Assembly (NCBI GenBank): GCA_019347945.1
Contig: JAHWKK010000027.1
Span: forward strand, 1-40,132
Reading direction: 5' to 3'
DNA length: 40,132 nt
From: Acidobacteriota bacterium
Lineage (GTDB): Bacteria > Acidobacteriota > Thermoanaerobaculia > Gp7-AA8 > JAHWKK01
Shown: positions 18,537 to 32,353 of the stretch, piece by piece
How positions within the stretch are numbered: position 1 is the first letter of the stretch
How the letters are laid out: each line of letters starts with the position of its first letter
The notes under the pieces: generated by a model
Told to the model about the DNA's origin: nothing
What the model saw: the letters and a program-made list of their open reading frames with translations, nothing else
Database searches by the model: none
Position numbers and translations under genes: made by a program

Positions 18537-18612
18537 CGGCAACCGGCAACTGGCAACCGGCAACTGGCAGCCGGCAACCGGCAACGGCAACTGGCAACTG
18601 GCAACTGGCAAC
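18537..18612 (+). repeat. Period-7 minisatellite (GGCAACY)n
   Basis: About eleven tandem units of GGCAACC or GGCAACT, with one shortened unit, fill the space between murJ and oppD. The same unit flanks the foldback element at 14252-14697. Any promoter for oppD would have to lie inside or beside the repeat. Confidence 0.9.
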
Positions 18613-18651
18613 TCTCTTTCTGGCACCGAATTTTCTTGGCAATCCCTCAAC

Positions 18652-21410: not shown

Positions 21411-21445
21411 GGACCGTCAGACCTGTCGGACGCGTCTGACCTGTC
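21411..21445. repeat. Period-9 repeat at the left edge of the CRISPR island
   Basis: Tandem units read GGACCGTCAGAC, CTGTCGGAC, GCGTCTGAC, CTGTC: nine-base units with GTC-N-GAC. The last unit merges into the first, degenerate CRISPR repeat. Similar blocks occur at 23864-23899 and 31271-31315 and nowhere else that I noticed. Confidence 0.7.
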
Positions 21446-22061
21446 AATGGGGCCGCACCTTTTCAGAGGCGGAAAGCCACTACCGAGCCGATCAAGCTGG
21501 TAGCTGAGGCTGCGAACCTTCAATGGGGCCGCGCCCTTTCAGACGCGGAAAGCTCAGGCGTCGAGTGGGTTGTGATCGACACGTTCTCCCTTCAATGGGG
21601 CCGCGCCTTTTCAGACGCGGAAAGAACTGCGAGCACTCAACGTCGTCCTTATCCCCGAGACGCTTCAATGGGGCCGCGCCTTTTCAGACGCGGAAAGGTG
21701 GCCCTCGGACGGGAGACACGTTCGGAAAGTGGAGCTTCAATGAGGCCGCGCCTTTTCAGACGCGGAAAGCCGGGATGTTACAGGGGGCGAGGCGATCCGG
21801 GCCAGCTCACCTTCAATGGGACCCCGCCTTTTCAGACGCGGAAAGGGCGGCGTCCGGGTCGAGGATCTCGGCGACGAAGCGCTTCAATGGGGCCGCGCCT
21901 TTTTAGACGCGGAAAGTGTACGAGCCCGGAACGGTGGTGGATCACGTGTGGCCGCTTCAATGGGGCCGCGCCCTTTCAGACGCGGAAAGGACGAAACGCA
22001 GGTGGGGGGGCAATCCTGTCTCGCGGCTTCAATGGGGACGCGCCTTTTCAGACGCGGAAAG
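21442..22061 (-). CRISPR. CRISPR array 1: 9 repeats, 8 spacers
   Basis: The repeats are 35 bases and begin at 21442 (degenerate), 21518, 21590, 21663, 21735, 21811, 21882, 21955 and 22027. On the plus strand they start CTTCAATGGGGCCGCG and end CAGACGCGGAAAG. Spacers are 41, 37, 38, 37, 41, 36, 38 and 37 bases, all unrelated. Most copies carry one or two point changes; those at 21590 and 21663 match the consensus. The crRNA strand is minus: the reverse complement ends CATTGAAG, as in type I handles, and folds into an 8-pair stem (CCGCGUCU/AGGCGCGG) with a GAAA loop. The worst repeat is at the left, leader-distal end. Confidence 0.97.
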
Positions 22062-22261
22062 GGCCCGCGTTCCCGAGCCCGTCAATACAAGCCAATTTCG
22101 TTGCTTTGCGAGCGGTTCGTGCCCCGCCCCGCTCGCCAGCGCACGGCCAGCGTGTTTCGATTATCAAAGACCCCGGAATCACGGCGACGAGCGGTGCCCT
22201 CCGACGAACTTCGGCGCCCCACCGTCGCGACACATTCCCGGTTCATTCTCGATTCTAACCT
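22062..22261 (-). promoter_or_regulatory. Leader of CRISPR array 1 (duplicated sequence)
   Basis: About 200 bases directly right of array 1 match the sequence directly right of array 2. Shared stretches include ATACAAGCCAATTTCG, GCCAGCGCACGGCCAGCGTG, a GGCGACGAGCGGT block and TCTCGATT(C/T)TAACC at the far end. Similarity stops there. The position beside each array on the 5' side of the transcribed strand fits a leader holding the promoter and integration signals. Because the two copies have diverged, duplication is not recent. Confidence 0.75.
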
Positions 22262-22580
22262 AGGGAGTTGGCGGAGCACGTTTCCTCGCACGCAACCTCG
22301 GCAGGCTAACGACCTAGGCTAGCTTCGAATCTGTCCGCGCTTCGCATTACGTCACGCCTGCTGATTCAAAGATGCGAATGCGGGGCAACTGTTCTAGACA
22401 GCCGATGCTTGCCCATGCGGCCCGCTTTCGTCCATCGCTGCACCGGAGTCTCCGGCTGCGGGGAGCTGACCACTGAGAAAGACCCAACGAAATGCGAAAC
22501 TTCGCCGCGGATGGCCGTAAAGGTGCGGCGTCTCTTCAGTCGGGGGAGGCCCCGATCTCGCGGTGCAGCTGCTCCGCGGC
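22262..22580. other. Spacer region between leader 1 and array 2, no gene
   Basis: No coding frame of any quality is seen. A perfect short hairpin CCGGAG/CTCCGG lies near 22443-22455. Near 22523-22548 the sequence GCGTCTCTTCAGTCGGGGGAG resembles the second half of the CRISPR repeat, and 32 bases later the first recognised repeat of array 2 starts; this may be a decayed leader-distal repeat with its spacer. Confidence 0.5.
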
Positions 22581-23486
22581 GTTCAATGGAGCCGCGCCCT
22601 TTCAGACGCGGAAAGTACGAAGTACAAACTGGGCAACAACTTCAACGACGTGCTTCAATAGGGCCGCACCTCTCCAGGCGCGGAAAGCTGAAACTCAGGA
22701 TCTACGTCAGCGACAACTTCGTGCTTCAATGGGGCCGCACCTTTTCAGGCGCGGAAAGTCCGACTGATGGTCATGCCCGCATCCCTCGCAGCAGCTTCAA
22801 TGGGGCCCCACCTTTTCAGGCGCGGAAAGAACCTCCGCTGTGAGAACTGCCGACGAATCGACGAGGCTTCAATGGGGCGGCACCTTTTCAGATGCGGAAA
22901 GCCCCGGACCCCGCCGTCTCAAGGTCAACTCTCGCCGACTTCAATGGAGCCGCGCCTTTTAGACGCGGAAAGCGACCGAAAGCCGGAAACCTCGGGGCGC
23001 CAGATTCCAGCTTCAATGGGGCCGCACTTTTTCAGGCGCGGAAGGAAGCTCTGCCGCTCACCTCGAACCAGTATGATCGCTTCAATGGGGGCCGCACCTT
23101 TTCAGACGCGGAAAGCCACCAGCCCCGGGTGCGCGGATGGTTCGCGCACATCGTGCTTCAATGGGGCCGCGCTTTTTCAGACGCGGAAAGCCGCAAGCCC
23201 GGAGTGCGGCATCGGCTGATGGATGTGCTCCTTCAATGGGGCCGCACCTTTTCAGGCGCGGAAAGGGTAACTTCGGGGTCCATCGACAGCGCGGCTTCGG
23301 CGCTTCAATGGAGCCGCACCTTTTCAGTTGCGGAAAGCCGGTGTTGCCGAGAAACGCGTTCCAGAGCCGGTTCCTTCAATGGGGTCGCGCCTTTCATTGG
23401 CGGAAAGCTGGTAGAAGTCCGCCCAGAGAATGCCCGGCCCGGCCCGGCCCAGCTTCAATGGGCCGCACCTTTTTAGGCTCGGAAAG
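22581..23486 (-). CRISPR. CRISPR array 2: 13 degenerate repeats, 12 spacers
   Basis: Repeats of 34-36 bases begin at 22581, 22653, 22724, 22795, 22867, 22939, 23011, 23080, 23156, 23231, 23303, 23374 and 23453. Spacers are 37, 36, 36, 37, 37, 38, 34, 40, 40, 37, 36 and 45 bases. The main variant differs from array 1 at two linked sites (CCGCACC and CAGGCG). Several copies have single-base indels: a lost base at 22939, 23374 and 23453, a gained one at 23080. The three rightmost, next to the leader, are among the worst. The last spacer is the longest and contains a CGGCC repeat. Transcription is leftward, as for array 1. Confidence 0.95.
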
Positions 23487-23690
23487 GCCCGCGGTTCCGA
23501 GCCCGTAAATACAAGCCAATTTCGCTGTCTCGCGAGCGGTTCGCCCCGTCACACTCGCCAGCGCACGGCCAGCGTGTTTCGACTGTCAAAGATCCCGGAT
23601 TTACGGCGACGAGCGGTCCTTCCGACAAACTTCGGCACTCCACCCCTCGCGACGCTTTCTCGGTTCATTCGCTTCTCGATTTTAACCCGG
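23487..23690 (-). promoter_or_regulatory. Leader of CRISPR array 2 (duplicated sequence)
   Basis: Homologous along its length to 22062-22261, starting with CGAGCCCGTAAATACAAGCC and ending near TTTTAACC at 23688. Its right boundary coincides with the end of the cas2-like coding remnant, the usual place for a leader in a cas-leader-array layout read on the minus strand. Confidence 0.75.
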
Positions 23691-23692
23691 TA

Positions 23693-23870
23693 TACCTCCG
23701 TCGCAGAGGGCCGCCGGAAACGCCTCGGCCACCCGAGCACCTCGATCCCCGCCGATGACCTGGCCGTATTCCGTCTCAGAAGCCAATCCGCGTCATGATC
23801 GAGGAGCTCGTCGAGGCGGGACCGCATCACCGCCTTCTGCAAAGGTGTCTACTCCTCGTAGAAAGTGGGA
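23693..23870 (-). pseudogene. Possible relic of cas2 (C-terminal part)
   Basis: Read on the minus strand, this gives FYEE-stop-TPLQKAVMRSRLDELLDHDADWLL and, further on, AGIEVLGWPRRFRRPSATEV. The pattern resembles the second half of Cas2: a VF(x)E strand, an LTPxQ turn, a helix with RLxELxDxxxD, a strand and a closing IEVLG...P..V. A TAG sits where Leu would be expected, and upstream of FYEE the sequence turns into the period-9 repeat, so the N-terminal half with the catalytic Asp is gone. It lies where cas2 belongs, between the effector genes and the leader. The match is by eye only and may be fortuitous. Confidence 0.4.
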
Positions 23871-23899
23871 CTTGCCGGACCCGTCGGACGTGGCTGACA
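23864..23899. repeat. Period-9 repeat at the break in the cas2 relic
   Basis: Units read GTGGGACTT, GCCGGACCC, GTCGGACGT and GGCTGACAG, the same nine-base family as at 21411 and 31271. It joins the truncated cas2-like sequence to about 97 bases of non-coding DNA before the cas8 stop. Confidence 0.65.
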
Positions 23900-23996
23900 G
23901 TTCAACCAGTCTTCATCGGCGCTCACTTTTCGGATTTTCCCGAGGTGGTCATCAGAGTGAGCACGCGGGACGTGCCGTCGCCAGAGCTTGGGCCGC

Positions 23997-25034
23997 TCAC
24001 CGAGCACGCTTCCGATGCTGCGGTTCGATTCGCTCCGACTTGATTGCGGAGAGCGGGAGTGCGCGCGTGAAGTTCATCGACCGGTCATCGATACGTCGCG
24101 ACGTGAAGACCTGCTCGACTCCCAGATGCGAAAGACCTCGCGGCACGAGCAGCTCCGGATGACCAAGCATTGCCCTGATCGCTGAGAGTGAGGCCTGTTC
24201 CCGCCAGATTGGCCAGGAGAACGTAAATCGGCCCCGATCGACTGCTCCCCCTAACACGCCGACCCGCACACGAGTTCTTCTCTGCACGGGGACGACGGTC
24301 ACCGCCGAGAGTCCAACCGAGGCCAGTCGATTGGCTCCGTGCTGGGTTCCAATCTTGTACTTCGTGTCCGTAGGGTCACCGGCCATCATCGCCCAGCGCG
24401 AATCTTCCTCTGCATCCCATCGGAATGAGGTAGTCAGATCATCGTCTCTGCTCCATCGGTCGAAAAGCGTCTGTCGTAGGCATTCCTCGGGCGAGTCGGC
24501 CGACAGCGTCCGTCCTGGCCGCTTCGTCGGAAGATCCTGTCGCGGCACCTGTGCCAACCGCTCGAGAAAATACTGCTGACCACCTCCGAACTGGAGGCAC
24601 AAAGGAGTAGGCTCTACCGAATCTTTCTTCAATCTTAGCGCCTGATCCGTCATGAGTGCTGCAAGCGCATCGGTCCGATCTCGGAACATAGGACTTGCAT
24701 CTGAGATACTTTCTTTTAGAAGTTTCTGGCACTCCTTCTGACTGAAGTCAATCAACTTCCTTCCGCCAAACCCGTGAGCTGGCAGGATGCGAGCAAGCCC
24801 GCTGATCGTCGAGCCAACGATATCGAGTGGGTCGGTCACGCAACTCACATGCAAAATCGGCCGCAACGGCGGATCGTCGAGGGACCATGAGACTCGCGCA
24901 CGAAGCTTCTCTTTCTCCGGCCGGTCACGGTCATCAGCTTCGAGCGCGCGCAACAGACCCAAAAGCGCGAGAAACGAGAGCAGGTTGTCAGGCTCGAACC
25001 CGTCGAGGCGGTGGACGCGGGTTGCATCACTCAT
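23997..25034 (-). CDS. Type I-G Cas8g / Cas3-extension family protein
   Basis: Probable large subunit of the type I-G effector complex, likely to take part in PAM recognition and Cas3 recruitment. The 345-residue product starts MSDATRVHRLDGFEPDNLLSF and continues LALLGLLRALEADDRDRPEK and WSLDDPPLRPILH, a start shared with the I-G Cas3-extension/Cas8u group; the rest is divergent. Its ATG overlaps the cas3 stop by four bases (ATGA). It is the last intact gene of the operon: cas4-cas1 and cas2 normally follow here. Assignment to Cas8 rather than an accessory subunit rests on position and on being the only candidate. Confidence 0.75.
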   Translation of the reverse strand: MSDATRVHRLDGFEPDNLLSFLALLGLLRALEADDRDRPEKEKLRARVSWSLDDPPLRPILHVSCVTDPLDIVGSTISGLARILPAHGFGGRKLIDFSQKECQKLLKESISDASPMFRDRTDALAALMTDQALRLKKDSVEPTPLCLQFGGGQQYFLERLAQVPRQDLPTKRPGRTLSADSPEECLRQTLFDRWSRDDDLTTSFRWDAEEDSRWAMMAGDPTDTKYKIGTQHGANRLASVGLSAVTVVPVQRRTRVRVGVLGGAVDRGRFTFSWPIWREQASLSAIRAMLGHPELLVPRGLSHLGVEQVFTSRRIDDRSMNFTRALPLSAIKSERIEPQHRKRAR

Positions 25035-27958
25035 CCATGCACCTCCATGGCTTTATCCTCGGAGGCCCGGTGATCAGCCAGCCGAAGGATGGCCTCCATC
25101 CGCGCCAGCTCCCAGACGCCGTAGCGCGCCTTCAACGTCTCGAACAGGGTCGGCCAATCGCGTCCCTTCCAGTCGAAGGCGAGTGATTGAGGTCCGACTT
25201 CCGGCGTTTTCTCCGTCGGATCGGAGTGCGGATAGAACGGCCTGCCAAATCCATGATGGGTTCCTACGAGCCACAACACCAAATCTGCGTCCGCGGCGGA
25301 TGTGAGACGCTCATGAGCCATCGCCTTTCGAACGGAAAGCGCTTCATGCCGCCAGTGCTCCGGAAGGCCAGAAGCGGCTCTCGCTTTCCGCGGCAGCGGT
25401 CTCGCCGATTTGGCAATCACCGTTTCGGGATCAGCCCCGAGCGGATCGCCGTAGTAAAGCCATCGTTGGAAGCGCTGATCGCTTTTTCCATGGTCATGAA
25501 GATAGCCTGCGAGACTGAGATCTCTGACGCGATCGGATGACAGACCCACCCTCGAGGCGAATGCTCCGGCCTTTTCTTCGACATCCTTGCTGTGCTGCTC
25601 AAGCGGAAGACAGTATCCCCCAATCGATCCCGCCAGATCGTCCTCGGTACTTTGCGTCGCCAGCCCCCTGGCTTCCGTAGCAGACGCCGCCGCGTCGCGA
25701 GACGGTCCGTCCTTCAGACCCAGCGGTGCTACGAACACGACGCCCCGCGGACGATCCTCCTCGCCCTTTCCGTAGAGATCGAAGTAGTGATGTACCGCGC
25801 CACGTCGAGCCTCGCTCAGCCTTCCGAGGTCACTCGCCAACTGCTCCTCCAGAGGCAGACCCAGAAGAACGTCACGAGCGTCTTTCCAGCGTGCGTTCTG
25901 AACCGAAGCGAGTGCGTCCGAGAGAGCCGTCTCCGACACATTCACCCCCGGGAGAGAGGGATGCACTCTCACCGAGAAGCGTCTTCCGGCGAACGGCGCG
26001 GCTGCCTGTGCTCCGACGTCGGCGACATCGGCATCACTCCCGGGCTTCCAGCCGTACTCGTCAAGACCCCCATAGCTAGCCGGAACGACGACGTTTTCGC
26101 CAGGCCGGATTTCGCCGGGCTCAATCCACTCCGATGCGTCGTCGTCCCCCTTCCATCGAAAGATCTGTCGTCGCGATGGTCGTCTGTTCTCGGAGTCTTC
26201 CCCCGCCTCGGAGGGTACATCCGCGAGATCCTCGATGCGATCGCTCGGACGCTCGAGCCATCGCCGCACCGCCCAGACGGGCAGCTCGATCGTCTCGCCA
26301 GACTGAGGGGGAACGAGCGTCAGCAGCCGCCGGCCTTCAGTGTTGCGGGGCTCGAGGTCCGCGCGCCATGCGACAGTGACCGAGTCGGGTGCGCGGTGCG
26401 GACCGTGGAGATATAGCGCCGAATCCGGATCGGCTGCAGGAATTGGTGAGGTGTGTGACAGCAGGTCGAGATGCGCAGGCATGAGTACCGGCGCGTCGTC
26501 TTTCGGCGCGAGCGCCGGCGGGTCCATTCGGACGGCAAACGTGCTCAACCCGAAGTCTACCCAACTCTTCTTCTTCGATCCCTGTGCCGCTGCCATTCGA
26601 TCCCACGCTTCTTTGATCGCCCCGCCGTATACGGGGTCCTCGTACTTCTTGTGGAGATCGGATGACATCGCGATAACCGCACCCCACGGGGTAATGTCGC
26701 GGCCGGCGCGATTCAGCCGTCCGAATCTCTGACGCAGGGAATCGATCGGCGCCGCTTCTGAAATGACCGCATCGAGATCGACATCGACGCCCGCCTCGAG
26801 ACACTGAGTCGCGACGACGACCATCGTCTTCTCGAGCTTTCTCGTCTCTGCGTCTGTCAAAGTCCGTGTGCGAATCGGTTTCAGTCGATCAGCGAGCTGA
26901 TCGCGATCGATGGATCTGGCTGGTCCAATCATCAGAATCAGGTCGATCTTCTCGTCATCAATCTCGCTCTGGTGTCGCTTCGTCAGTTCTTCGTACACCG
27001 AACGCGCCCGTGCGACGCGGTTGACGATGACGGCTATCGCGGGGCGGGCCGCACCGTTGTCCGAATTTTTGAAGTGTTCGGTTGCTTGTTCGACCGCACC
27101 GACCAGGGCCTCGGTTCGGATGGTAAGATCGCTCTCTACGGGTCCTTTCGTCTCGATCAATCGAACCTTTTTCGAAGCATCGAGGCGCTTTTGCAGGACC
27201 TGATGGTTCCGGTCGTCATCCTTCAGCGAAAACGGCAGAGCCGTGTGGTCGTCCTTCCGGTCACCCGGGGTCGCCGTCAGCAGTGCGAACGCATGCGGAG
27301 AGGATTCACGCGCCTCTCTCCACTTCTCCGACCGGTAAACGTCAATCCAGTGAAGCGTCTGACGGAACGGTTCGGCGAGATGCGCTTCGTCCAGAAGGAG
27401 CAGACAGTCGGCGCCGAGAAGACCTGCGTGCACAGGCTTCATCGAGTTGGTGACTCCATATCCGCGGAAGAGCAGGCGCGAACCGACCTGATCGACGGTC
27501 GAGCAGAGAATCGTCGGCTGCGACGGCGTTCGCGCCCAGTCGTGCTCCCGCGGGATACCCCCACGTAGCCGCCGCGCGATCAGGGGGCGCTCGCTCGATT
27601 CCGCGAGCCGCCCTAGCCTCGCCGCCACTTCAAGGCAGACCTCTCCTTTCGGAGATTGGAGGGCTTTTTCGATCGCAAGAGCCCTCGAGTATGCGTCGTC
27701 GACGACAAGTCTGCGATCCACGATGAATGCGATGCGCACCGGAGCTCGGCGCTCCCTTCCACGCTCGGCCTCGAGTGCGAGGTGGAAAAGCGCTACGTCC
27801 ATTGCTGCCGTTTTGCCGGACCCGGTCGGCAGGTCAAGCACCCTCGGCCATCGTCCGGTATCAAAAACCTCCCGCAAGAGTCTGCTTTGCCACGGAAAGG
27901 GATCGTAGCCGTGGAGTTCCTCGAAGAACTGCCCGAAGTTTTCGGTGGTGAGAGTCAC
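25031..27958 (-). CDS. cas3: Type I-G helicase-nuclease Cas3
   Basis: Effector nuclease-helicase that unwinds and degrades the DNA strand displaced by the crRNA complex. The 975-residue product has a superfamily 2 helicase first: Walker A LPTGSGKTAAMD at 43-54, LLLLDEAHLAEP near 190, FALLTATPGD, and motif VI RQRFGRLNRAGRD. The HD nuclease comes last, with YLHDHGKSDQRF (HD near 821-822), PEHWRHEAL and GTHHGFGRPFYPH. The helicase-then-HD order is typical of I-G. I start it at the GTG at 27958, which overlaps the csb2 stop by four bases. An upstream in-frame extension has no Cas3 homology. All motifs look intact. Confidence 0.93.
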   Translation of the reverse strand: MTLTTENFGQFFEELHGYDPFPWQSRLLREVFDTGRWPRVLDLPTGSGKTAAMDVALFHLALEAERGRERRAPVRIAFIVDRRLVVDDAYSRALAIEKALQSPKGEVCLEVAARLGRLAESSERPLIARRLRGGIPREHDWARTPSQPTILCSTVDQVGSRLLFRGYGVTNSMKPVHAGLLGADCLLLLDEAHLAEPFRQTLHWIDVYRSEKWREARESSPHAFALLTATPGDRKDDHTALPFSLKDDDRNHQVLQKRLDASKKVRLIETKGPVESDLTIRTEALVGAVEQATEHFKNSDNGAARPAIAVIVNRVARARSVYEELTKRHQSEIDDEKIDLILMIGPARSIDRDQLADRLKPIRTRTLTDAETRKLEKTMVVVATQCLEAGVDVDLDAVISEAAPIDSLRQRFGRLNRAGRDITPWGAVIAMSSDLHKKYEDPVYGGAIKEAWDRMAAAQGSKKKSWVDFGLSTFAVRMDPPALAPKDDAPVLMPAHLDLLSHTSPIPAADPDSALYLHGPHRAPDSVTVAWRADLEPRNTEGRRLLTLVPPQSGETIELPVWAVRRWLERPSDRIEDLADVPSEAGEDSENRRPSRRQIFRWKGDDDASEWIEPGEIRPGENVVVPASYGGLDEYGWKPGSDADVADVGAQAAAPFAGRRFSVRVHPSLPGVNVSETALSDALASVQNARWKDARDVLLGLPLEEQLASDLGRLSEARRGAVHHYFDLYGKGEEDRPRGVVFVAPLGLKDGPSRDAAASATEARGLATQSTEDDLAGSIGGYCLPLEQHSKDVEEKAGAFASRVGLSSDRVRDLSLAGYLHDHGKSDQRFQRWLYYGDPLGADPETVIAKSARPLPRKARAASGLPEHWRHEALSVRKAMAHERLTSAADADLVLWLVGTHHGFGRPFYPHSDPTEKTPEVGPQSLAFDWKGRDWPTLFETLKARYGVWELARMEAILRLADHRASEDKAMEVHG

Positions 27959-29412
27959 GACGACTTCTCCCGGAGCGGGCGGCAGAGGCCCAGCCCGAAA
28001 TAACGTCCCGCACCCAAAATCAGCGGGCCCTCGACGGGTTCCTCGAAGCGGATTACGGCGTGCACGAGCTGACGGCTGCTGAGAGACCGCGGCAGCCGCC
28101 AGCCTGTCCAACGTGGCGAGTTGCCGGAAGGGTAGGCTGAAGGGATTCCCTCCAGCGCGGAATGCTTGTCAGCAATGATCTGCGACGGTTCCGGAAATCC
28201 CACGTTCAGACAAGCGGCACTGATGAGCTTTGCGATCTCTTCATCCCGCTGCGCTCCGTTCGTCTTCAAATGGCGATCGAGAGCGATCGGAGTGACCGTT
28301 ACGAACATGCGCGAGGGCATCGTATATAGGCTCGGATTCAACGAAGTCGCACTCGCTTCAAAAGTGGGAGAAAGTTCGATCGAAAACGCCTGAGTAGCGG
28401 GGGTTCTCTCCCGCGTTGTCACCGTGAGAACTCGGCGACCGCGTCGTTCCTCGATCGGAGACACCTCACGCAGGGCGCGGAGAAAGTCACCATCGTCAAG
28501 AATGTTGCTGTCTGCCGGCGGAATCAGCGCGAAGCCCAGGACATGGCCGTCGGCATGAGGAAACCCGGCGAACGGGAGCGGGACGATCGCGAGGTGAGGC
28601 GACTGGCTTGGCGACTTGTCGGGTCGATGGCCGCTCACTACTTCGGGTATCCGGTCTTCGAGACCGATCCGGCGATATCCGCTGGAGATCGCGTCACGAA
28701 TAACCCGGCTGACAAGAGCCGCCGCTCGAAGGTCCCGCATTTCCCCGCCGATGTGCTCGAGGATCAGCCATCGATCAGCGAACACGCCGATTTGTCGTTG
28801 CTCTTTGGGCTGTGCGGTTCTCACGAGATCTCCCCGTTGCGGACGGCGTCCTCGCTCGAAATCTCTTCGAAGCTCCTCGAACCGTCCTGGATAGACCCGC
28901 CGCCCCGCCGGCTTCGCTTCCGCGAGCAAGGCTTCGTCGTGAGTGACTCGGAACCGGCACCGGGTGAGACTCGTGGAATGTCCGACGTACGCCGTTGCCT
29001 GCGCGAGCTGCTGGAGGTCACTCAAAGTTTCTTCATCAGGAATCGAATCGGCCCAGACGAATCGGACCAGGGGATCGGCCGGTCGGGAGGACGGAAATCG
29101 CCGCGGCTGTCGCGACCTGAGCTCCGGTAGCACCCCTCGCGCCACCTTCTTGCGATCACTCCTCGGATCGTTGGGCGGAACGAAAACGACCGGCGCCGTT
29201 CGCGGTTCAGAAGTCGTGGCCACGATCAGTGGCGGTGGAAGATGCTCCAGCCACTCGAGAGAGGCTCTGCGTTCGTCTCCGCGTGCTCCCCAGCTCGCGA
29301 CGAGTGCTGAGAAGACGCGGTCCGGCTGCGGTGGCCAATCGGGCTCTTCGCTGTCAGGACCTACGGCCGCGAAACAGACGCCTGAGAGATACTCGACTTC
29401 CAGAATCAGCAT
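27955..29412 (-). CDS. csb2: Type I-G Csb2 (Cas5-Cas6 fusion)
   Basis: Fusion that caps the crRNA 5' end (Cas5 part) and processes pre-crRNA (Cas6 part). The 485-residue product (GSU0054 group) begins MLILEVEYLSGVCFAAVGPD and has WPPQPDRVFSALVASWGARG, TAYVGHSTSLTRCRF, PHLAIVPLPFAGFPHADGHV and the C-terminal Gly-rich ILGAGRYFGLGLCRPL, as in RAMP proteins. No stand-alone cas6 exists in the window, so this must cut the repeats. Its ATG overlaps the csb1 stop by one base (TAATG) and its end overlaps cas3. Confidence 0.9.
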   Translation of the reverse strand: MLILEVEYLSGVCFAAVGPDSEEPDWPPQPDRVFSALVASWGARGDERRASLEWLEHLPPPLIVATTSEPRTAPVVFVPPNDPRSDRKKVARGVLPELRSRQPRRFPSSRPADPLVRFVWADSIPDEETLSDLQQLAQATAYVGHSTSLTRCRFRVTHDEALLAEAKPAGRRVYPGRFEELRRDFERGRRPQRGDLVRTAQPKEQRQIGVFADRWLILEHIGGEMRDLRAAALVSRVIRDAISSGYRRIGLEDRIPEVVSGHRPDKSPSQSPHLAIVPLPFAGFPHADGHVLGFALIPPADSNILDDGDFLRALREVSPIEERRGRRVLTVTTRERTPATQAFSIELSPTFEASATSLNPSLYTMPSRMFVTVTPIALDRHLKTNGAQRDEEIAKLISAACLNVGFPEPSQIIADKHSALEGIPSAYPSGNSPRWTGWRLPRSLSSRQLVHAVIRFEEPVEGPLILGAGRYFGLGLCRPLREKSS

Positions 29413-30641
29413 TACGAATCACCGGCGCCTTCGTCATCCTCTCCGCCCGCACCGGCAAGAGCGAGCTCCTGACTCTGGCGCACGATTTCGACTAGTTTGT
29501 CCTGAGGCTGGAGGCGCAGGGGCTCGTCGCGAAGGGCGAATCCGGCCATCTTCGCCGCAGCGCGCGCTTCTTCGTACAACGCGTGCGACGCGTCCAGATC
29601 GAGGGACATTTTGTTCGTCGACCCGTCTGACTGAACTTGTTCGATAGCAGCACGTCCGTCGCAGACGAGATCACAGCGCGAACGCAATGCATACCCGCGG
29701 GCATCCTGCTCGGCGAGAGCGACGAGGCCGAGTGCAGCAAGGAGGGCGCGACCGATTTCGTTTTTCTCTGGTGAGCCGAACCGAAGTCGGCGAAGCGCCG
29801 CGAAGCTGAGCACGAAGGTGTGCTCCAGATGGTCACAAGTGATGCCGAGGGCCTGGATTGATGGAGCGATATTTCCATGATTGATCTCGGACGGCCGCAC
29901 TTTTTTGGCTTTCTTGCCCGCTTCAGATTGATCGGTGCTCCACCCGGACTCACCTTTGAAAACTTCAACCTTTCGCAGAACGCCAAGCGGGTCGATGCGG
30001 CTCCCCGTTCTCCGTGCCGCTGTTCGGACGACCAGTTCTCCGGTGCGAGTGACTAAGGATTCTTCAACCGGTACGTCGATGGCGACAATCTCCGAGGTCA
30101 GACTTCGTGCGAACTTCGCTCCAAGCGCGCCACCTTCACCCGTTGAGTGCCACGCGCCAAACAGAAGCGCCGTCGGCGACGCCTCCAGAAGGCTTGATGC
30201 ATCCTGGAGCTTCGCCTTCGCCAGCCGCTTGCCCGTCTCACTCTTCATGAATGGCTCGCCGTCGAGAAGACTGTCACGCAGAATCGCGTCGTACACTCGA
30301 TGCGGAGCATCAAGTGATGTGATCTCTCCGATTCCGTCCAGCCCCGCCTTCGAGAAGTCGACGACCACGTACGGCGCCTTCAAGCCGTTCCGAATCGCCT
30401 CGAGTAGTGATTCTTCGAGACGGTTCGCCTGTGATTGCACGCTGTCGACCAGAACGCACCATTTCTCTTCACCGTTCACGCGACGCCGCTCGTAGACATG
30501 GCGAGGCGGCCCGTTCTTCTCCTCTGCCGGGTACGTCGGTGGAAAGATCTTATCGCCCTTTCCTCCCACGGGCTGCAACACCTGCCTGCGGCGGAACGCC
30601 GCGTCGTCACTGGTCATCGTTCTAAGTTCATCGAACTTCAT
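29412..30641 (-). CDS. csb1: Type I-G Csb1 (Cas7 backbone)
   Basis: RAMP protein forming the backbone along the crRNA. The 409-residue product (GSU0053 group) starts MKFDELRTMTSDDAAFRRRQ and has KIFPPTYPAE, HRVYDAILRDSLLDGEPFMKS and LLFGAWHSTGEGGALGAKFA followed by RSLTSEIVAIDV, the family hallmark. The ATG at 30641 has a near-perfect AAAGGAGG six bases upstream, the strongest ribosome-binding site in the operon, as expected for the most abundant subunit. It is the first cas gene; a HIRAN-domain gene lies 104 bases upstream on the same strand. Confidence 0.92.
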   Translation of the reverse strand: MKFDELRTMTSDDAAFRRRQVLQPVGGKGDKIFPPTYPAEEKNGPPRHVYERRRVNGEEKWCVLVDSVQSQANRLEESLLEAIRNGLKAPYVVVDFSKAGLDGIGEITSLDAPHRVYDAILRDSLLDGEPFMKSETGKRLAKAKLQDASSLLEASPTALLFGAWHSTGEGGALGAKFARSLTSEIVAIDVPVEESLVTRTGELVVRTAARRTGSRIDPLGVLRKVEVFKGESGWSTDQSEAGKKAKKVRPSEINHGNIAPSIQALGITCDHLEHTFVLSFAALRRLRFGSPEKNEIGRALLAALGLVALAEQDARGYALRSRCDLVCDGRAAIEQVQSDGSTNKMSLDLDASHALYEEARAAAKMAGFALRDEPLRLQPQDKLVEIVRQSQELALAGAGGEDDEGAGDS

Positions 30642-30745
30642 TGCTCCTCCTTTGGGGACGTCCCGCTTGTTGTAACGGTTATCGTTCGGCACCCCGGAAC
30701 GCGGCGCGCGCAAGGTTTGATTGCGAGCCCACCGATCCCCCACCT

Positions 30746-31177
30746 TTAGCCACGCTCCACCTCAACGGTGACAGTCAGCCGTTCCCACGGCGGTGCTGGG
30801 GCTGGGTGGATCGCGGCCACGCGAGCCCGCAGCCCAAATCCGGCGTCAGCGAGGCGCGAAGGGATCGCGTTGGACTTCCTCGGGACGTAGCCGAGCTTCG
30901 TGCCGCTCAGCGTATATACCGCGATCGCTCCCGAGTCGTGCACATTTCCGGGCTCGCGCCTAAGATCGAGTTCACTGCCGACACCGAGGCCGCCGAGTGC
31001 CGCGTTGCCTCCATCATGGCGGAAGCCCGCGACCTGCGTAGTAAGAAGCATCGCTGAGGGTGTGGGGCTCCTGGCGGCAAGACGAGTGCCGAGACTGACG
31101 ATGGGAAGCGCGGCAAGGCCTTTCAGAGGCCAGCGCCTGCTGACGCCCCTCGGTTTCGTCCGCGACGCGTGTGACAT
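30746..31177 (-). CDS. HIRAN-domain protein with Tat-like N terminus
   Basis: The 143-residue protein has a HIRAN domain at about 44-141: TTQVAGFRHDGG, LDLRREPGNVHDSGAIAVYT and TKLGYVPRKSNAIPSRLADA. In the helicase HLTF this fold binds 3' ends of single-stranded DNA; small stand-alone bacterial forms are uncharacterised. Residues about 13-36 read SRRWPLKGLAALPIVSLGTR, like a twin-arginine signal (SRRxFLK with Pro for Phe), so export is possible. The ATG at 31177 has GGAGG upstream. It is on the same strand as the cas operon, 104 bases before csb1, with no clear terminator between. Whether it belongs to CRISPR function is unproven. Confidence 0.8.
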   Translation of the reverse strand: MSHASRTKPRGVSRRWPLKGLAALPIVSLGTRLAARSPTPSAMLLTTQVAGFRHDGGNAALGGLGVGSELDLRREPGNVHDSGAIAVYTLSGTKLGYVPRKSNAIPSRLADAGFGLRARVAAIHPAPAPPWERLTVTVEVERG

Positions 31178-31342: not shown

Positions 31343-32353
31343 TCAGGAGCGTTCGCGGCGGACGAATGCTTCGATCTCGACGAGGAGCTCGGAACGGCAG
31401 ATCTCGGCGTTCAGGTAGAGCACCGAGGCAGGGTCGACCAGCTGCTCGATGATCGATGCGATCTCCGGCTGATCGCTCGCATGCCGGACATAGACCTTGA
31501 GCTTTGGATGAAGGCCCGGCGAGCCGAGCCCGGCACCGGGACCGAACGCTTCGCTGATGACCGCATCGAGATTCCGGATCGTCTCGCTCACCTGACCGGC
31601 GACATCGCCGACGTGAACCGTCTCGTGTCCGACGATGCTCGCGGTTCCCGAGATGAAGAGCGTCTCCGCATCGTAAAGAGCGGCTCGCGCGAACGACGGA
31701 CTTCGCGGTCCGTACCGCCCCGGATAATGAAAGGCGCTGACCTGTCTCGGGTTCTCGATGAACCGGGGAGCTTCGCTCGAGCCGAGCGCGACAACGCTCA
31801 GCAGGCCCGACCGGGACCCGAGTGCACTCCCCGCCGGCAACTCCCGGTCCATGTCGAATCCCTTCTCGAGAAACGCTTCGAACCTTCCGACACAGAATCG
31901 CTGGTAGCGTTCGATCACCTCGTTCTCGTTGATACCGGGAAAGTAGTTCCACACGCGAACGAGATGAGGGGATCCGACCGTGCGCATGAAATCGATCAGC
32001 TCGCCGTAGAGGCGCCGCGTCGCGGAACAGAGGTCCTCGCCCGGTTCCGCCTGCAGCGTCGCGAAAGCGGTCCCCCCGCTGACAGCCGCCCGGATGTTGC
32101 CCTCCCGGATCTCGCGAACCGGTCGGTCGCTCGCCAGGAGCTCACCGCCGCTCTCCGATCCGAGCGGAGGCAGTGCGATCCGGAGCGCCGAGCCCGGCGC
32201 CGGACCCTCGCCGCCGAACCGAACCTCGCCCAGAGCGTGGCCGAACCCAGGGACCATCCGATCTCTCGACGCGAAGCCGTACTCGACGCGCGCGGGTGCA
32301 GCGGTCGCGGCAATCGGACTTCGTTCTGACGAGCTCTCGGTTCGGGAAGACAT
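31343..32353 (-). CDS. Chorismatase-family protein (FkbO/Hyg5/XanB2-like)
   Basis: Enzyme family with a RidA-like fold that removes pyruvate from chorismate, giving hydroxybenzoate or dihydrodihydroxybenzoate products. The 336-residue protein has HLVRVWNYFPGINE, ERYQRFCVGRFEAFLE, LPAGSALGSRSGLL, ENPRQVSAFHYPGRYGPRSP and SGTASIVGHETVHVGD, then a RidA-type end VLYLNAEICRSELLVEIEAF. The ATG at 32353 has GGGAGG about nine bases upstream. It stands alone, with no quinone, pigment or polyketide genes around, so which product it makes cannot be told. It ends 28 bases from the period-9 repeat. Confidence 0.8.
   Translation of the reverse strand: MSSRTESSSERSPIAATAAPARVEYGFASRDRMVPGFGHALGEVRFGGEGPAPGSALRIALPPLGSESGGELLASDRPVREIREGNIRAAVSGGTAFATLQAEPGEDLCSATRRLYGELIDFMRTVGSPHLVRVWNYFPGINENEVIERYQRFCVGRFEAFLEKGFDMDRELPAGSALGSRSGLLSVVALGSSEAPRFIENPRQVSAFHYPGRYGPRSPSFARAALYDAETLFISGTASIVGHETVHVGDVAGQVSETIRNLDAVISEAFGPGAGLGSPGLHPKLKVYVRHASDQPEIASIIEQLVDPASVLYLNAEICRSELLVEIEAFVRRERS

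Follow-up and report, generated by a model that had tools for sequence, protein, structure and literature searches.

Introduction

According to the available part of the report on the type I-G effector of Thioalkalivibrio sulfidiphilus, this effector is made of the same four proteins as are encoded in the locus described here, and its repeat is processed by Csb2, with an 8-nt handle (PMC9638904). Unlike the present locus, that of T. sulfidiphilus also encodes Cas4-1, as given in a figure legend of the same report (PMC9638904). Adaptation-less CRISPR loci are already well known, and our locus is a fresh example of this class. Type VII loci, as far as the accessible part of their description goes, are said to be without adaptation modules, and their multiply substituted repeats are taken as a sign of rare spacer uptake; their effector, however, is Cas14 (PMC12669027). 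The absence of an adaptation module would appear to be a trait of the whole type in type VII, but a loss in a single lineage here. In a literature search, from which most subscription papers were out of reach, no publication was found on this locus, nor on I-G loci that combine a loss of adaptation with repeat decay.

Three loci of our survey are nearest in kind. L037 (genome G273; on the contig that also gave L074, labelled Granulicella sp. MAG) has the same gene order, cas7-csb2-cas3-cas8g, with 56% (Cas3), 56% (Csb2) and 70% (Cas7) identity, and its repeat plan is common to our locus and to L039. In contrast to our locus, cas8g is separated there from the leader by cas2 (96 aa) and cas4/1 (610 aa), and the array shows 18 repeats of identical sequence. 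L036 (genome G175) is as close (56%, 62% and 70% identity for Cas3, Csb2 and Cas7) and likewise lacks cas1 and cas2 in the 18 kb around the operon. It differs in having no array in that 18 kb, and its genome does contain Cas1, together with cas2 and a long array, on another contig. In Minicystis rosea DSM 24000 (L107) the effector genes are present, leader-near repeats are altered (leader-side repeats 2-5) and no Pfam Cas1 match occurs genome-wide, all as in our case; cas4/1 is reduced to a frame-broken remnant. There, however, the array precedes the operon and lies on the other strand, and the changes in the 48 repeats found are mostly at both ends, with few in mid-array.

Results

The effector operon is complete

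The window (the whole stretch of DNA analysed, 40,132 nucleotides) comes from a draft genome of an Acidobacteriota bacterium (3.72 Mb, 49 contigs, 99.65% estimated completeness). The type I-G locus occupies 21442-30641 on the minus strand, with an effector operon at 23997-30641 (minus) and, beyond it, two arrays whose leaders are duplicated. The first gene, cas7 (csb1; 29412-30641, minus, ATG at 30641), matched Pfam PF09617 (1.7e-50), PADLOC Cas7g (4.3e-46) and NCBIfam TIGR02570 (1.9e-23), the searches having been made with the longer frame 29412-30743. It is followed by csb2, a cas5-cas6 fusion (27955-29412, minus; PF09609 6.1e-19, PADLOC Cas56g 4.2e-125, TIGR02165 6.2e-92), and by cas3 (25031-27960, minus; TIGR02621 3.1e-240, PADLOC Cas3g 8.5e-248). 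The start of cas3 is probably near 27960; the open frame extends to 28111, and the TIGR02621 match begins at residue 58 of the 1026-aa frame. The last gene, cas8g (23997-25034, minus), matched PADLOC Cas8g (3.3e-66) and NCBIfam NF049934 (2.9e-34), with no match in Pfam. Profile searches thus recover the whole I-G effector set, Cas7g/Csb1, Csb2, Cas3g and Cas8g. Adjacent genes overlap by a few nt and the frames are uninterrupted, so that open frames and family matches bear out the claim of four overlapping, intact effectors made by the sequence-only reading. In Cas3, G99 K100 T101, D241 E242, Q461-R465, H872 D873, H922, H952 H953 and D1013 are invariant in 5/5 aligned sequences, columns which we take to be the helicase motifs and HD residues; in Csb2, the C-terminal H451 is invariant in 7/7.

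No adaptation genes are detected

Neither Cas1 (PF01867) nor Cas2 (PF09827) gave a match at E<=0.001 anywhere in the genome, and for Cas4 (PF01930) only a sub-cut-off stretch of 12.5 bits was found. The Cas4/1 protein of L037 found nothing in the genome at E<=10, in a search without a positive control. The locus is therefore not a complete adaptive I-G locus with a cas4/1 fusion and cas2; within the limits of a draft of that completeness, the genome appears to be adaptation-less. The absence of cas4-cas1 and of an intact cas2, first noted from the letters, is thus confirmed, and the complete module elsewhere in the genome that had been named as one half of its refutation was searched for without success.

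Between cas8g and the leader there are only about 306 nt (23690-23996, minus), at the position where L037 has cas2 and cas4/1, with a weak HMM resemblance to cas2. The score of the best frame was reached by 2/2000 dinucleotide shuffles with a broad HMM and by 8/2000 with a close one. However, an unrelated stretch (29926-30232, minus) scores 3.0 bits against 3.1 for the candidate. The cas2 relic proposed earlier therefore keeps its position and the few equal shuffles in its favour, but it is weaker than was claimed.

Repeats are altered up to the leaders

Array 1 (21442-22061, minus; 9 repeats, 8 spacers) has its leader at 22062-22260 (minus), and array 2 (22581-23487, minus; 13 repeats, 12 spacers) at 23488-23680 (minus); blocks of the two leaders are 85-89% identical. 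Alignment with the leader of L037 was not convincing. Read on the cas-gene strand, the repeat is of I-G kind, about 36 nt with a hairpin and a ATTGAAGC-like end. Among the 22 repeats (with 20 spacers) there are 19 distinct sequences; only 3/231 pairs are identical, and only 4/22 equal the consensus of their own array. The other 18 differ, leader-side copies of both arrays included, as the sequence-only reading had said of nearly every repeat. Mean divergence from consensus is 3.5% in array 1 and 7.0% in array 2 (by the survey measure, 1.00 mismatches per 30 nt in array 1; by gapped alignment, 2.5 substitutions per 35 nt in array 2), and some repeats of array 2 carry single-base indels. The two leader-most repeats differ by 2 substitutions in array 1 and by 7 substitutions plus 2 gap columns in array 2. 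The leader-side repeats are thus no longer identical, which is what a fixed memory predicts.

Within the repeat, the changes spare one element. Across the 20 internal repeats ATTGAAG is unchanged at 140/140 positions, where 8.35 changes are expected at base-matched rates (P=2.4e-4); counted on 25 distinct change events, none falls inside this core (P=0.0019). With base 36, changed in 6/20, included, the P for the 8-nt handle is 0.098, and 7 consecutive unchanged columns at any place in the repeat have P of about 0.05. Applied to other changed arrays, this split gave P=4e-5 (L040), 0.019 (L107) and 0.40 (L038). We take the conservation of the handle core as support for a maintained system, and as support only. 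An Rfam search of the window gave no match.

Across 27 loci, altered leader-side repeats go with lack of a detected Cas1

A first scan of the genome contigs with Cas3 alone returned no loci. The survey was built on the best 80 of 153 from an alignment scan, 20 stretches chosen from phylum matches, and the window, 101 loci altogether. Of these, 89 had cas7, csb2 and cas3; 61, of which 27 have cas1, were dropped because their flanks were short, and the 28 with 4 kb or more to either side represent 27 distinct loci, L074 being a duplicate of L037. A real cas1 lies in the stretch in 19 of the 27, Cas1 lies elsewhere in the genome in 6, and 2 are in genomes without detected Cas1. These two are our locus and that of M. 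rosea, and leader-side repeats are altered in both. An array was found at 18 of the 19 cas1-bearing loci, with repeats averaging 0-0.28 mismatches per 30 nt in 17; the outlier, L044, has 2.00 owing to one bad copy of 4. L082, with Cas1 elsewhere in its genome, has 31 identical I-G repeats. Across the 27 loci, it is therefore a supported pattern that identical leader-near repeats accompany Cas1 in the genome, and altered ones its absence.

Outside this set the picture is less uniform. L040 (G326, short flank) has no detected Cas1 and 8 identical leader-side repeats, a counter-case indicating that absence of detected Cas1 is not always paired with altered leader-side repeats. Among the dropped loci, L041, whose genome (G350) lacks Cas1, shows 4 repeats that carry 2-4 mismatches apiece, and L043, with cas1 and cas2, has a 6-repeat array whose leader-side copies are near-identical save for A-run length while the far ones are decayed. 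For L097 and L099, in MAGs without detected Cas1, the roughly 9 kb downstream show no array. The repeat families of L090 (6 copies), L120 (3) and L149 (3) were un-CRISPR-like and excluded from the array counts; L143 has a 15-copy family unlike an I-G repeat.

Spacer targets, self-matches and ectopic repeats

When the array region was compared with 50,697 phage records, no spacer target was found (25 records matched, with a lowest E of 0.7 among the 20 matches listed), nor was one found in 72,556 plasmid records (10 matched, lowest E 0.2). Seven of the 20 spacers, searched in viral contigs as exact codon-wobble patterns in guessed frames, gave 0 matches each. Against the own genome, the region gave matches at E=4.9e-5 and 1.7e-4, which lie outside the spacers, in the interval separating the two arrays and at array 1's outer end. 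A CreTA-guarded CRISPR-Cas was also considered, and ectopic degenerate repeats near the cas genes were looked for in the window; a consensus scan, which may miss very degenerate copies, gave a best score of 15 outside the arrays, leaving aside one match that overlaps array 2's final repeat, and revealed no such repeats.

It is unlikely, in our view, that the Cas complex is kept for a role other than defence, whether to regulate genes through crRNAs with partial matches or as a CreTA-like RNA addiction module, with the arrays inert as immune memory. Such a role would fit effectors that stay intact while repeats drift, as well as spacers without a found invader target. However, the best score outside the arrays is equalled by shuffled windows (13, 15 and 15), and no strong spacer self-match was seen, the best being an exact 19-mer at E=0.165; short partial matches may exist.

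Discussion

Gene content, intact frames, the lack of a detectable Cas1 or Cas2, and repeat changes up to the leader are direct observations. The best reading, to which we give a probability of about 0.7, is that of an interference-only, still maintained type I-G CRISPR-Cas with a fixed memory, which took up no further spacers once cas4/1 and cas2 were lost; the analysis supports the sequence-only reading in this, and working interference is the conditional part of it. Under the proposed course, the two genes would have been lost from the site where the close relative L037 keeps both, and spacer addition would have stopped thereafter. The remaining parts would act as is usual for I-G. The arrays would be transcribed from their two leaders, and Csb2 would cleave every repeat 4 nt downstream (3') of the hairpin, producing crRNAs that carry an ATTGAAG(C) handle. 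The surveillance complex would consist of Csb2, Cas7 and Cas8g, Cas3 would degrade matching DNA, and the 20 spacers would be the closed memory. Expression, crRNA processing, interference and upkeep of the locus by selection are what we infer from the genes and repeats.

The locus might instead be a dying relic, in which adaptation was lost first and the effectors, though unused, are still unbroken. The repeats have indeed decayed; a stem mismatch is seen in 10/22 in the repeat alignment, and by covariation the hairpin is preserved no better than in shuffles (126/500 as high). In simulations of the four genes (n=300 each), a fraction of 0.11 stayed stop-free at 1% neutral change. That fraction falls, however, to 0.01 at 2% and to 0 at 3% or more, and the mean divergences of the repeats exceed this, although as a gauge of neutral change they are a small sample. 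The five leader-side repeats alone are changed at 6/175 (array 1) and 16/175 (array 2) positions. Neutral change of 3-5% would be expected to leave 6.2-10.3 stops in the 6,651 coding nt of the cas genes, where 0 were observed; single-base indels occur in array 2 repeats, but none as a frameshift in the cas genes. A dying relic is therefore quite improbable.

That spacers are still added by a Cas1-Cas2 missed in the assembly or carried on a mobile element seems very improbable: the genome is a draft in 49 contigs, and trans adaptation is known for another type, according to the part of PMC8092290 available, but the leader-side repeats are altered and mutually different where L082, with Cas1 elsewhere, keeps identical ones, and the adaptation genes are gone from the exact site where L037 has them.

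As for why an interference-only system would persist, we suggest, tentatively and at somewhat less than even confidence, a fixed, innate-like defence kept by selection: effectors and handle core would be under purifying selection while other repeat positions drifted by 3-9%, and the fixed set of roughly 20 old guides, or just some among these, would still pay. M. rosea would then have followed the same path independently.

If the pattern of the 27 loci holds in a larger set, frozen CRISPR memories could be recognised by a simple test on genomes, with L040 as an exception. In our judgement, the present locus bears on whether CRISPR systems unable to learn are still useful or only on their way out. 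It offers a clear example from nature, with controls, having intact effectors, no Cas1 detected in the genome, and repeats that record the time since the last spacer. With its cutting genes kept and its memory-adding genes apparently lost, it seems to depend on an unchanging and ageing record of earlier invaders.

An effector operon without adaptation genes

The window spans the entire contig G000:C27 (40,132 nt) of the host genome G000 (3.72 Mb, 49 contigs, 99.65% complete). The genes cas7/csb1, csb2, cas3 and cas8g follow in this order on the minus strand with overlaps of a few bases, and all four match their family profiles and have open frames. The helicase and HD residues of Cas3 are conserved in 5 of 5 aligned proteins, and the C-terminal H451 of Csb2, a Cas5-Cas6 fusion, is present in 7 of 7; this residue may correspond to the catalytic histidine known from the literature. 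The sequence-only reading, in which the four effector genes overlap and look intact, is thus borne out. GC3 of the cas genes (23997-30641) is 0.64-0.68 versus 0.77-0.81 in three neighbouring genes (murJ, read out of frame, left out), a difference consistent with a horizontal arrival of the operon. Directly upstream on the same strand is a HIRAN-domain ORF of 143 aa (30746-31177, minus strand, E=2.8e-14), which also resembles PDC-M03B (PADLOC), and an FkbO/Hyg5-like chorismatase frame is found at 31343-32353 (minus strand; Pfam 3.7e-29, NCBIfam match under its cut-off).

It had also been proposed that cas4-cas1 and an intact cas2 are absent. Family profile searches of the draft genome gave no match to Cas1 or Cas2; as a positive control, the same searches in 14 genomes matched Cas1 in 9 and Cas2 in 7. 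A full Cas4/1 protein query gave no match in G000 at E<=10 in a search run without a positive control, and the Cas4 family gave one sub-cut-off stretch and nothing above it. The genome-wide search for a Cas4-Cas1 fusion and Cas2, which had been suggested as a check, therefore found neither in G000, in agreement with the proposal.

In the close relative G273, whose locus (L037) has the module, the gene order is cas7-csb2-cas3-cas8g-cas2-cas4/1-array, whereas in the window roughly 306 nt separate cas8g from the leader. One frame of this gap resembles the Cas2 stretch around 'DELLDHDADWLL', with a score that was reached by 2/2000 or 8/2000 shuffles, and an unrelated part of the window scored nearly as high by chance. 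The gap would hold at most a cas2 remnant, which its position makes likely and its sequence suggests weakly. Of the relic proposed earlier, the position stands, as in L037, and the sequence resemblance is weaker than proposed.

Both arrays have altered leader-side repeats

Downstream of the cas genes and on the same strand follow leader 2 with array 2 (13 repeats), then leader 1 with array 1 (9 repeats). Together the two arrays have 20 spacers, each 34-44 nt long. The repeat orientation is that of L037 and L039, whose arrays come after the cas genes on the cas strand. The leaders are copies of each other, with blocks 85-89% identical. The inter-array stretch 22389-22447 matches G000:C4:47592-47651 at 78% identity along about 60 nt (E=4.9e-5), and 18537-18613 holds CGGCAACTGG-like units repeated in tandem over a short distance.

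The leader-adjacent repeat is the template for each new repeat, so an active array should have identical repeats at its leader. Here 18 of 22 repeats differ from the consensus of their own array, and the two leader-most repeats are 7 substitutions and 2 gap columns apart in array 2 and 2 substitutions apart in array 1, which upholds the earlier statement that nearly every repeat, the leader-side ones included, is changed. Mean substitutions against the consensus are 3.5% (array 1) and 7.0% (array 2); in the five leader-side repeats 6/175 and 16/175 positions are changed, respectively, none of them in the handle core. The repeats indicate that both arrays have stopped growing.

Repeat condition and Cas1 among type I-G loci

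Profiles of Cas1, Cas2 and the four effectors were used to score 101 I-G loci: the window, 20 stretches that we chose from phylum matches, and, out of 153 named loci, the best 80. Loci with cas7, csb2 and cas3 plus at least 4 kb on each side numbered 28, of which 27 were distinct. A real cas1 was in the stretch in 19 distinct loci of this set, and an array was seen in 18 of these; for 17 of these arrays the mean is 0-0.28 mismatches per 30 nt of repeat, the exception being L044 (2.00, through one copy of 4). The same count gave 1.00 for array 1 of the window. Array 2 was split and indel-inflated in this count (3.14, 4.67), and gapped alignment was used instead, giving 2.5 substitutions per 35 nt.

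Six loci (L036, L049, L070, L082, L106 and L143) have no cas1 in the stretch but Cas1 elsewhere in the genome, and L082 has 31 I-G repeats with zero mismatches. L036 is an effector operon (G175:C13, 4832-11608) with no array, cas1 or cas2 within the 18 kb examined; G175 does have Cas1, and cas2 plus an array of 50 repeats, on a different contig (L064).

Only two well-flanked loci, that of the window and that of Minicystis rosea (L107), belong to genomes in which the Pfam Cas1 profile found no match. The Minicystis sequence is a complete chromosome (16 Mb), in which a frame-broken cas4/1 remnant adjoins an array of 48 found repeats; pieces resembling the N-terminus of Cas4 and the C-terminus of Cas1 lie in different frames beside the effector genes (L107 4978-5333, minus strand). 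Its leader-side repeats 2-5 are changed and its middle repeats mostly clean, which simple decay over time does not explain.

I-G Cas3 was found in 38 of 396 sampled genomes of the phylum, five of them without a Cas1 match (G000, G326, G159, G333 and G350). G350 has 4 repeats, every one altered, in line with a simple rule linking lack of Cas1 to altered leader-side repeats. G326, with 8 identical leader-side repeats and decayed ones after them, runs against it. Both loci were left out of the 27 because of short flanks.

Probable selection on the cas genes, and conservation of the crRNA handle

Simulated neutral change of 3% placed 6.2 stops on average in the four genes and left 0 of 300 simulations stop-free; at 1%, a fraction of 0.11 was stop-free. 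Since the repeats have changed by 3.5% and 7.0% and the open cas genes lack the simulated stops, the four genes have probably been under selection after the last spacer uptake.

With the I-G cut site described in PMC9638904, the seven bases ATTGAAG make up most of the crRNA handle. This motif is unchanged at 140/140 positions of the 20 internal repeats, where 8.35 changes were expected; the trailer-most repeat of each array, whose handle serves no spacer, is changed within it. Three results count against this signal. Seven consecutive unchanged columns anywhere in the repeat have P about 0.05. At base 36, adjoining the 35-nt repeats (e.g. 22026 and 21954), 14 internal repeats have C, 5 have G and 1 has T; relatives have C there, with a C/G mix also in L038. 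When base 36 is counted in (changed in 6/20), P for an 8-nt handle rises to 0.098. Hairpin conservation was no better than in shuffles. Conservation of the handle supports continued use and does not prove it.

CRISPR loci without adaptation genes are already well described. Types VII, III-G and III-H are reported without adaptation modules in PMC12669027, where the substituted repeats of type VII are taken to mean rare spacer addition, and trans adaptation was shown for a VI-B locus (PMC8092290). The locus in the window looks like a well-controlled case of adaptation lost within a single I-G lineage.
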